From: Prosthecobacter algae
Lineage (GTDB): Bacteria > Verrucomicrobiota > Verrucomicrobiia > Verrucomicrobiales > Verrucomicrobiaceae
Direction: 5' to 3'
DNA length: 64,000 nt
NCBI RefSeq assembly: GCF_039542385.1
Contig: NZ_BAABIA010000007.1
Span: 248,001 to 312,000, forward strand
The translations under genes and the position numbers were made by a program. The notes beneath the pieces were generated by a model. The model worked only from the letters and a program-made list of their open reading frames with translations, did not search any database and was not told where the DNA came from. Shown here piece by piece: positions 10,052 through 42,143 of the stretch; the first letter of the stretch is position 1, and each line of letters starts with the position of its first letter.

Positions 10052-12461
<2,410 letters not shown>

Positions 12462-13073
12462 GGGTGGTGGCAGGACGGTTCACCTGAGATGGCGCGGAGG
12501 TGGGTGGGGTGCAAGGGGAATGACGTTCGTGCAGAATATATGACAGCGGATTTCCGGTTTTCCGAGAGAGCAGAACGGATTCAGACGTGGGGATGGGGAC
12601 GTTGTAGAAATTTCCCCATTTGGGGATCATTTGATGTAAACGATTGGAAACCAACAGCTTAATATGGGGACAACTTTCCCCATCAAATCCCCATCCGGGT
12701 ATGGTGGGGAGGTTTGGGGGATGACATTCTGGCCTCGATAAAGCTGAACTGAGATGCGGGCCACGGAGGCAAAGCACACGAGACTCTGGAGGCAGCCACT
12801 CGATCTCTTTTTCGGAAATTGAAATTGGGCGCGGCATCGTGACATCGAAGAAAAGTCCCCTGCCCTGTGAATGAGCCGGGCGTCTGATTGCCTGACAATT
12901 TCGGGGACGAGGATGGCGGGCGCAAGGGCCAGAGTCCCCCTTTGGAGCTAAGTCGCGAAAAAAGTTGGGGGATGTTGCGGAGGCCCTGGGGGGATAAATC
13001 CGCCTCGTTTGTGGGTATGGGATGGCCATCCGGCGGCTGTTTGGGGTAGGATGTCGGTCTTGCTGTGATTGCC
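12462..13073. other. Intergenic region of ~610 bp with no supportable gene
   Basis: Several frames stay open here but none resembles a protein family and their codon use is unlike the flanking genes. The notable content is the CCCCAT-box element at 12588-12696. The 3' part presumably carries the promoter for the hydrolase gene at 13074; no clear -35/-10 pair was picked out. Confidence 0.45.
12588..12696. repeat. CCCCAT-box element, copy 1
   Basis: Seven ATGGGGA/TCCCCAT-type boxes in both orientations lie within about 110 bp: GTGGGGATGGGGA, then TTTCCCCATTTGGGGAT, then ATGGGGACAAC and TTTCCCCAT, then ATCCCCATCC. The first four boxes and their spacing are repeated at 41640-41766, with the shared core CCCCATTTGGGGAT in each. 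The match includes spacing, so this is either a dispersed repeat or a shared multi-site operator. It lies about 380 bp upstream of the hydrolase gene at 13074. Confidence 0.6.
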
Positions 13074-41042: not shown

Positions 41043-41483
41043 ATGCCCCAACCCGCCCCTCTTGATCCTGCCGAACTGCCCGCCCTGGCGCTGGCGACGA
41101 TGAAAAGCGCCAAGTTCCCGGTGCTGGCGACGATGGACGGCGACCAACCCCGCGTGCGGCCCGTCTCCCCGGTGAAAACCGACGGCTTCATCGTCTATGT
41201 GGCCAACCTGCGCCGTTACGGCAAAACCGCCGAACTCGCTGCCAACCCGAAAGCCGAGCTCTGCTACACCGACGACGACCACAACCAGGTCCGCATCACC
41301 GCCACCGCCGAGATCCTCACCGAGCGTGCCCAGATTGAAGACATCTGGAACAGCAACGCCCTGCTGCGCACCTACCTCCGCGACATCAACAACCCTGAAC
41401 TTATCATCTACAAGTTCACGCCCCACCGGGTGCGGTACATGAAGGAATGGGCGCTGGAGTATCATGAGGTGCGGCTGTCCTGA
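41043..41483 (+). CDS. Pyridoxamine 5'-phosphate oxidase (PPOX)-family protein
   Basis: The 146-residue protein has the split-barrel FMN-binding fold: ATMDGDQPRVRPVSPV, YVANLRRYGKTAELAANPKAELCY, VRITATAEILTE and IYKFTPHRVRYM. Members bind FMN, F420 or haem and often act as general-stress or detoxification enzymes; substrate cannot be inferred. A decayed partial copy of its residues ~74-120 lies 440 bp downstream. A second, distant PPOX gene is at 61729-62265. Confidence 0.84.
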   Translation: MPQPAPLDPAELPALALATMKSAKFPVLATMDGDQPRVRPVSPVKTDGFIVYVANLRRYGKTAELAANPKAELCYTDDDHNQVRITATAEILTERAQIEDIWNSNALLRTYLRDINNPELIIYKFTPHRVRYMKEWALEYHEVRLS

Positions 41484-41639
41484 GAGTGTCCGCTGGAGGC
41501 CGTCGTCCTTGGAAAGCGTATCTCTGAGCTGATGCCGCCTATTTTTGAACCAATATGGCTGAGGAAGATGTGCTGACGGCTTAGAGATGAATCGTGTTTT
41601 TATGGCGATTTGAGAAACGGAAGCCAGCGAGAGCTTTGG

Positions 41640-41766
41640 GTGGGGATGGGGATGATTCTAAAAATCTCCCCATTTGGGGATTCCGAGTCGCTAAACCTTG
41701 ATCTTCAGTATTTTACGATGGGGATTCCATGGGGACAGATTTCCCCATGTGGGGAAGCTTGGGGAT
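41640..41766. repeat. CCCCAT-box element, copy 2
   Basis: Nine CCCCA/TGGGG boxes in about 127 bp: GTGGGGATGGGGATG, TCTCCCCATTTGGGGATT, ATGGGGATTCCATGGGGAC, TTTCCCCATGTGGGGAAG and TTGGGGATC. The first four boxes match copy 1 at 12588-12696 in sequence and spacing. It lies between a PPOX gene and its decayed copy and is not adjacent to an intact plus-strand gene start. Confidence 0.6.
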
Positions 41767-41916
41767 CATGGAGAACGGCAGATTCATAAAAACCATAAAG
41801 TATTGAAGTTGACTTTGGAGGCGCACACCGTTCTCCAGTGGGTGGAGGACGGAGATAAGTTTATCATTGTTAAATGATATTCTATAATGTGAGAAATGCA
41901 ATGGAATCGTATGGTG

Positions 41917-42037
41917 CCGAGCACTGCTACACCGACGACGACAACCAAGTCCGCATCACCGCCACCGCTGAGATTATCACCGACCGACCCCTGCTGGAAG
42001 AAATCTGGAACAGCAACGCTCTGCTCCGCGCTTACGT
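41917..42037 (+). pseudogene. Decayed partial duplicate of the PPOX gene at 41043
   Basis: The translated segment reads AEHCYTDDDNQVRITATAEI and then a segment ending in NSNALLRAY, nearly the same as residues ~74-120 of the upstream protein (AELCYTDDDHNQVRITATAE). DNA identity is high across about 120 bp, with one codon lost and scattered substitutions. Both the N-terminal FMN-binding part and the C-terminus are missing, so it cannot be functional as a PPOX protein. Confidence 0.82.
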
Positions 42038-42143
42038 GATCGCGGTTTGCCTTTGGATCGCCATCTCTTGGTATAGATGAGGCTCGAACGAAACAAAAAT
42101 AGCGGCGTTATCGGCCATTGCCCCCCTGACTTGTTTGGTGTCG

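Follow-up and report, generated by a model that had tools for sequence, protein, structure and literature searches.

Why should a single hexamer be concentrated at just two places in a 64-kb stretch of Prosthecobacter DNA? Among all hexamers, only TGGGGA/TCCCCA reaches six or more copies per 130 bp in the window (by which we mean the whole stretch of 64,000 nucleotides that was analysed), and it does so exactly twice, at the sites designated copies 1 and 2 in Table 1. The largest cluster holds nine boxes, compared with a maximum of four in 200 first-order Markov simulations, which had a similar total number of boxes (56 observed, simulated mean 53.7). The strict heptamer ATGGGGA/TCCCCAT alone is not rare, since the total of 19 matches in the window was reached by 5 of 100 shuffles, and it is the clustering, not the abundance of the heptamer, that is the unusual feature. 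The original prediction described copy 1 as seven inverted heptamer boxes. Seven boxes do lie within 12588-12693, with an eighth at 12705-12710, but they hold as hexamers; only five per copy are strict heptamers. The first four boxes had been said to match between the two copies and they do, although the agreement in fact takes in five boxes, with order, orientation and spacing the same to within one base. Both copies are intergenic, as had been claimed.

Table 1. Features of the two box clusters and their surroundings, in window coordinates.
Feature	Position	Strand	Basis or remark
Element copy 1	12588..12710	+	CM match G000:C7:260595-260696, E 8.2e-17
Boxes of copy 1	TGGGGA 12588, 12594, 12621, 12665, 12705; TCCCCA 12613, 12677, 12688		
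Inverted core of copy 1, TCCCCATTTGGGGA	12613..12626	+	nearly invariant across 67 copies (two overlapping sets of 67)
38-bp spacer of copy 1 with dyad region	12627..12664	+	family consensus TAAnnnnTTGATnATCAAnGnnTTGCGA; copy 1 has TAAACGATTGGAAACCAACAGCTTAATA
Degenerate copy of right-hand module, GCGCAAGG ... GCTAAGTCGCGAAAAAAGTT	12920..12966	-	by eye and family statistics
kdsB (CMP-KDO synthetase), starts left of copy 1	11703..12461	-	NCBIfam on 11703-12386; ORF start 12461, codon-usage caller picked 12386
Element copy 2	41641..41765	+	CM match G000:C7:289656-289750, E 9.8e-17
Nine boxes of copy 2	41641, 41647, 41667 (TCCCCA), 41675, 41719, 41730, 41742 (TCCCCA), 41750, 41760		
Left flank of copy 2, GTGTTTTTATGGCGAT	41594..41609	+	inverted-repeat partner of 41785-41799; by eye
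Right flank of copy 2, CATAAAAACCATAAA	41785..41799	+	inverted-repeat partner of 41594-41609; by eye
Gene left of copy 2, reading toward element	41043..41483	+	ORF; G042 counterpart site L080

The surroundings of copy 2 have some features of their own. The product of the gene to its left, named by eye, we take to be pyridoxamine-5'-phosphate-oxidase-like. To the right of the copy, at 41919-42040, there is by eye a partial repeat of this same gene (compare 41260-41380), so that copy 2 sits between duplicated gene parts. The left flank in Table 1 is, again by eye, common to a subset of element copies. In this MITE-like subset a block of 250-380 bp has shared flanks with inverted repeats, ATGGTTTTTATGG ... 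CATAAAAACCAT; it comprises L090, L098, L037, L061, L080 and window positions 41594-41799.

The pair in the window is not alone, as a genome-wide search finds 27 copies in the genome to which the window belongs (G000; 6.12 Mb in 28 contigs), where the exact core TCCCCATTTGGGGA occurs 20 times. The search model used sequence only, was built from 67 aligned copies and was run on 48 genomes of the genus. It returned 75 elements in G042, 27 in G000, 15 in G034 (a fragmented MAG, 87% complete), 3 weak ones in G041 and 2 in G019, and none in the remaining 43 Prosthecobacter genomes. A stricter pattern gave no match in 29 genomes of the same order. In the genome_contigs collection (84,980 species), a scan of which may omit records very near the window's genome, the element appeared solely in a Prosthecobacter MAG (six stretches) and in one Anaerotignum match; the latter falls inside a gene (lgt, by eye) and was dismissed as a chance match. 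The element was not found in IMG/VR. The original prediction was to fall if the genome had two copies alone, which is not the case, and the idea of a multi-site, dispersed and probably protein-binding element is supported.

In the element, which is about 125 bp long, TCCCCATTTGGGGA and a TTGATnATCAA dyad are surrounded by TGGGGA/TCCCCA boxes. Copies placed in the same orientation show, from left to right, one or two TGGGGA boxes and, after 13-14 bp, TCCCCATTTGGGGATTT; a spacer that contains TAAnnnnTTGATnATCAAnGnnTTGCGA comes next, followed by ATGGGGATT and a variable run of boxes that point either way and are mostly spaced by about 10-12 bp. A next ATGGGG box was recognised in 66 copies (L088 has none), and in 65 of these it stands at a distance of 49-51 from the core. 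In 21 pairs of copies at the same gene in different genomes the mean identity of the boxes is 0.91 and that of the spacers 0.59; for unrelated copies within G042 the equivalent values are 0.89 and 0.52. The boxes thus appear to have been held while the spacers have nearly lost the trace of a common origin, a contrast that is partly circular because the boxes served to find the copies. A structured RNA, which had also been suggested, is rejected, since none of the five pairs in the consensus fold is altered on both sides and there are therefore no covarying pairs. No Rfam match was found at the site at the gathering threshold, a tRNA being the only Rfam match in the window. Readings of the dyad as an integron attC site, a Xer/dif-type site or a tyrosine-recombinase core were weighed by eye and set aside. 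Near L085, L106, L031, L043 and L058 there is a recurrent GGCGAGCTAAAGCTCTGGAGTACTTT-like repeat, REP-like in character and, by eye, seemingly unrelated to the boxes.

At four element loci an open reading frame runs into the element; it encodes a protein resembling the small subunit of phage terminase (TerS). Genes of this kind are present in seven copies in the 48 genomes, four in G000 and three in G042, the genomes with the most elements. In G014 there is a single borderline match, which carries a stop, and no TerS match was found in G034 (15 elements) at the 87% completeness of this MAG. In all six TerS copies that can be read to the end, the core of the element lies inside the reading frame near its 3' end, clearly in five and in degenerate form in one; the seventh copy is interrupted by the end of a contig. 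The degenerate element has a PWM score of 12.3, which is under that of the lowest known copy (15.6), while the best score in 400 kb of G023 is -6.6. Most copies of the element are solo, away from any TerS gene.

How good is the identification of this protein? Three of the TerS-like proteins match TerS PHROGs, with best values from 1e-6 to 3e-5, and a Pfam search with three gave Terminase_2 for one alone, at E 0.17. In the predicted structure the mean pLDDT is about 90 over residues 11-60 and the remainder is poorly modelled. The predicted N-terminal domain superimposes on the DNA-binding domain of SF6 TerS with a Z score of 8.1 (56 residues, 1.5 A). The top six proteins in this comparison are all from phages and five are named small terminase, including those of SF6, PaP3, an SPP1-like phage and NV1; all others have Z scores of 4.2 or less. 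Foldseek alone gave no E-value below 0.001 for the model, though its top rows are the same phage proteins. The TerS-like protein is accordingly described here as having a predicted HTH of the SF6 type. No relatives of it were found among IMG/VR viral contigs.

The placement of the element with respect to genes was determined for 107 copies (27 of 27 in G000, 72 of 75 in G042, 6 of 15 in G034 and both in G019), using gene calls from our own codon-usage caller, not a standard annotator. One copy has no called left neighbour. Among the other 106, 95 are upstream of the left neighbour and in one orientation relative to it, with a median distance of 186 bp from the core to the start codon. As a rough control, all gaps of more than 150 bp at these loci were counted, those with elements among them; 58 are divergent, 87 co-directional and 14 convergent, so that some 64% would be expected with orientation at random. 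Where the gap is co-directional, the two orientations stand at 57 to 8. Copy 1 follows the rule with kdsB, the counterpart of which in G042 likewise has an element upstream (L071), and copy 2 is among the 11 copies that break it. At 12 of the 27 sites in G000 an element stands at the same gene in G042, a relative with 87% ileS identity.

These findings bring to mind transcriptional control. The element might be a leader or operator at which a TerS-like HTH protein, or another regulator, would act on phased boxes downstream of a shared promoter, with a regulon of 27-75 genes and the phage genes described below. Besides the polarity and the positions shared at 12 of 27 genes, a promoter-like module on the far side of the element speaks for this explanation; near copy 1 its degenerate version (12920..12966) can be read as a putative leftward promoter, with a TTGC that resembles a -35 sequence, together with a half-palindrome. 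However, the genes downstream look unrelated, and include carB, ileS, rpoA, tgt, kdsB, a PilB/GspE-type ATPase, an FdhF/YdeP oxidoreductase, a UvrD/PcrA-type helicase and PVC heme proteins. When the left genes at 20 of the 27 G000 sites were compared with NCBIfam at 1e-10, six had no match and no common pathway was noticed. Furthermore, in the TerS loci the element is at the 3' end of the reading frame and not at a promoter. For these reasons, and for two more that are given below, we regard an operator as a serious alternative that is nevertheless unlikely.

The elements are not only oriented but also kept apart. In G042 none of 56 gaps is shorter than 20 kb, where 14.1 would be expected; the smallest is 23.7 kb, and the spread was matched by none of 20,000 random placements. 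This test took in 69 of the 75 matches, which make 66 sites after three tandem pairs were merged, the rest being a fourth tandem pair on C17 and one match each on C11, C14, C16 and C22. In G000, with 24 of the 27 copies entered, there are 18 gaps and none is shorter than 27.1 kb (P 0.005); the coefficient of variation of the gaps is not significant (P 0.09). The tandem pairs of G042, all less than 500 bp apart, are C1:804110/804418, C3:687037/687202, C4:28702/28927 and C17:35957/36353; these aside, all neighbours in the test are at least 23.7 kb from one another. Divergent pairs of elements are also spaced out, with a minimum of 27.4 kb, and because such pairs keep their distance too, the spacing is not simply an avoidance of overlap between head-on units or headfuls. 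An exclusion distance of about 24-27 kb has no reason in a regulon, which is the first of the further points against an operator.

Inspection of the sequences next to the elements revealed a palindrome, ACTTGGGCYAAGT. When up to two mismatches are allowed, 31 of 106 elements have it on their right, compared with none of 106 on the left and with 4 and 0 of 106 in far controls. A longer form of it is present 21 times in G042, three times in G000 and once in G019, where it adjoins an element, and is absent from G041, G018, G040 and G023. The palindrome also stands before all three TerS genes of G042. Nine of its sites in that genome are away from elements, and four of these precede genes that are phage-like by PHROG: one is before a portal gene, one before a capsid operon, and each of two before a copy of an O-like initiator gene, which in one case has a DnaC-like loader behind it. 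The remaining five sites are unclear or precede no recognised phage gene.

Are these portal and capsid genes maintained? Of the 48 genomes, 11 have portal and 13 have capsid, with one close copy each (L238, L240, L265-L288). Those of G000 and G034 are 79-85% identical to those of G042, and those of a sister clade 54-59%. In the element-rich genomes they are scattered among host genes. Contig positions in G042 put at least 60 kb between the two, and the separation is firm for this genome only; in the others, portal and capsid fall on separate contigs. For seven pairs of portal or capsid genes dN/dS is 0.06-0.35, and these are therefore maintained genes.

We can now compare the occurrence of the elements with that of the phage genes. 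In a tree of ileS, which covers 30 of the 48 genomes with G034 and G031 outside it, G000, G019, G042, G041 and G018 form clade A, and a nine-genome clade B is its sister; G000 and G019 are themselves sisters (support 99/97). Both portal and capsid are present in the three element-rich genomes, G042, G000 and G034. Portal, capsid and TerS are missing from G018, G019 and G041, in which the elements number 0, 2 and 3 (weak), respectively. Capsid is present in nine of nine clade-B genomes of the tree. Portal and capsid of one of these, G023, occur with no comparable box cluster in the 400 kb that were sampled (6% of the genome), so that head genes can exist without boxes. A promoter pattern for the portal of this second clade gave 0-4 sites per genome in 11 genomes, and no large family.

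The direction of change can be read in part from G019. Of the 23 G000 loci that were tried in this genome, nine have both sides in synteny. At eight (L101, L104, L085, L087, L103, L105, L108 and L091) the gap in G019 is 252-525 bp shorter and the genes are kept, these sizes being arithmetic on match coordinates with some ends extrapolated; at the ninth, L095, the gap is just 72 bp shorter. The two element matches of G019 lie outside these nine loci. Since the 12 G000 positions that are common to G042 include L085, L103 and L108, at least several of the absences in G019 are losses and not gains in G000. The absence of such blocks with retention of the genes is the second further point against an operator.

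Presence or absence as a block is also what might be expected from a selfish or mobile repeat, MITE-like or REP-like, that would show target immunity, go back to a TerS-bearing unit and survive mainly as copies with internal deletions. Such immunity would yield overdispersion, and some copies do share more than the boxes: L052 and L066, both in G042, have a common unit of 1,005 nt at 93.7% identity, with homology that starts at the core, and L090 and L098 share 380 bp at 88%. To this extent the small mobile repeat of the original prediction has a basis. No transposase was seen at element sites, and the filled and empty sites among the alignments listed (of 15) reveal neither common ends nor target-site duplications, the left ends varying from about -42 to -111 relative to the core. 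The polarity is strong, the boxes are conserved while the spacers drift nearly to the level of unrelated copies, and so many positions are shared with a relative as distant as G042. Taken together, these observations make a mobile repeat improbable. More improbable still, in fact very much so, is a site for chromosome organisation, bound by a nucleoid or domain-boundary factor and unrelated to packaging. Even spacing and a multi-box architecture would suit such a site, but presence in 5 of 48 genomes and loss along with phage genes would be odd for a basic chromosome function, and polarity relative to one gene would be left unexplained.

The elements come and go with leftover phage genes, and may therefore be built-in start points for packing bacterial DNA. 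We favour this explanation, to which we would give roughly even chances: the box clusters would be pac-like TerS sites of a domesticated, dispersed, gene-transfer-agent-like phage system in one clade of Prosthecobacter. It is the simplest account that covers the location in TerS genes, the co-loss, the shared positions, the polarity and the long-range spacing. The phage-derived set found so far, known from genes alone, consists of portal, capsid, TerS and replication-like genes. A putative TerS would bind the TGGGGA boxes, phased at 10-11 bp, on both sides of the dyad core; a putative large terminase would then cut near the core, for which the 38-bp dyad spacer (12627..12664) is a possible cleavage or centre region; and headful packaging of host DNA would start at the element and probably proceed toward the gene immediately downstream. 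What was computed is the family and its anatomy, where it lies in TerS genes, how it occurs and disappears along with head genes, the bias in its orientation and the evenness of its spacing; we infer TerS binding, cleavage, packaging and the direction of packaging, and the step from a TerS-linked site to a packaging start is likewise interpretive. The palindrome that elements have in common with TerS and other phage-like genes speaks for packaging. Against it stand the five palindrome sites with no recognisable phage gene, the G034 elements with no TerS match, the distance between divergent neighbours, the head genes of G023 with no box cluster in the 400 kb sampled, and the search of IMG/VR that found no TerS relative. 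The promoter-like module and the gene polarity count against packaging in that they also fit transcriptional control. A fuller version, in which a domesticated phage with scattered head genes uses 27-75 hard-wired pac sites, set at even distances, to pack host DNA by means of a site-specific TerS, each site oriented so that packing enters the 5' side of a chosen gene, is more doubtful and we advance it tentatively.

It is useful to compare these properties with those of known packaging systems. In P22, pac is located within the TerS gene. In SPP1, pac has three sets of direct repeats spanning promoters and the start of the TerS gene (PMC4737164). The resemblance to SPP1, SF6 and P22 lies in a multi-box site in the region of the TerS gene and in a TerS with an N-terminal HTH of the SF6 type (PMC4737164). 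Unlike the pac site of a headful phage, the Prosthecobacter element exists in dozens of intergenic host copies, many of them at shared loci, has an inverted core surrounded by hexamer boxes that point both ways, and occurs in solo copies without a phage genome. Two published findings count against the packaging explanation: the DNA-binding domain of SF6 TerS does not specifically recognise the pac box repeats (PMC4737164), and in HK97 the cos DNA is held inside the channel of the TerS ring and not wrapped around it (PMC11331095). P22 pseudo-pac sites start transduction, that is the packaging of host DNA, on the Salmonella chromosome, and are about ten chance look-alikes (PMC11226127). The Prosthecobacter elements are similar to these in being chromosomal candidate sites for the start of host DNA packaging, and differ from them in being 27-75 closely similar and evenly spaced sites, not some ten look-alikes (PMC11226127).

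With gene transfer agents (RcGTA, DsGTA, CcGTA and BaGTA) the likeness is in head genes that are under purifying selection in a host lineage and in loci that are spread over the chromosome. In the accounts considered here, such agents are described without a defined packaging-site sequence and as needing no packaging initiation site (PMC6854486, PMC11841831); the TerS of RcGTA is reported there to have no specific DNA-binding domain (PMC6854486), and for the D. shibae agent, DsGTA, coverage peaks are mentioned of which the cause is open (PMC11841831). Compared with these accounts, the Prosthecobacter system differs in that its TerS has a predicted HTH and candidate sites, and in that it is known here from genes alone (PMC6854486, PMC11841831). 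Given a predicted HTH that matches the SF6 domain, it would not be an RcGTA-type agent in that respect.

Two further kinds of sequence deserve mention. REP and BIME sequences with their RAYT transposases are dispersed, short, palindromic intergenic repeats with a linked gene. The Prosthecobacter element shares with these and with MITEs that it is dispersed, short, palindromic, intergenic and accompanied by a linked gene, but the linked protein is TerS-like, covariation of the RNA type is absent and the polarity upstream of genes is strong. Box arrays of the response-regulator or MraZ type are made of direct boxes phased at 10-11 bp. The phasing is similar here, but the structure is two-armed, about 125 bp long, and has a long-range exclusion.

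If confirmed, this would be a new variety of phage-derived gene transfer and, if the fuller version is true, a gene transfer agent whose packaging addresses are programmed genome-wide and whose TerS is site-specific. Why such agents are kept is debated, and in the accounts considered here they pack host DNA without a known start sequence; a maintained chromosomal set, by comparison with agents described there without a defined packaging-site sequence, would therefore be a new form. A TerS DNA-binding domain together with conserved, evenly spaced candidate sites would make the choice of DNA for packaging readable from the genome. Among the literature matches listed, none was a paper on a gene transfer agent of Prosthecobacter or Verrucomicrobia or on a dispersed chromosomal set of pac sites of such an agent. 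Even if the elements were operators, a 75-copy element with an exclusion distance of about 24 kb that is lost along with phage genes needs explaining.

The head genes are of interest apart from the boxes. Present in the genus on different contigs and under purifying selection, portal and capsid mark a candidate gene transfer agent in Verrucomicrobiota independently of the element. No relatives of either gene were found in INPHARED phages. In IMG/VR there are relatives at about 54-58% identity, at seven capsid and five portal loci, and one 33-kb contig, IMGVR_UViG_3300009152_002590 (L305/L314), has a related portal gene and, some 10 kb away, a related capsid gene. With both on one piece of DNA, this contig points to a contiguous phage as ancestor or relative, and may represent a free-living relative of the scattered system. 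The same contig also has tail-chaperone and internal-virion-like genes, with a protein of 2,509 amino acids that matches an internal virion protein family.
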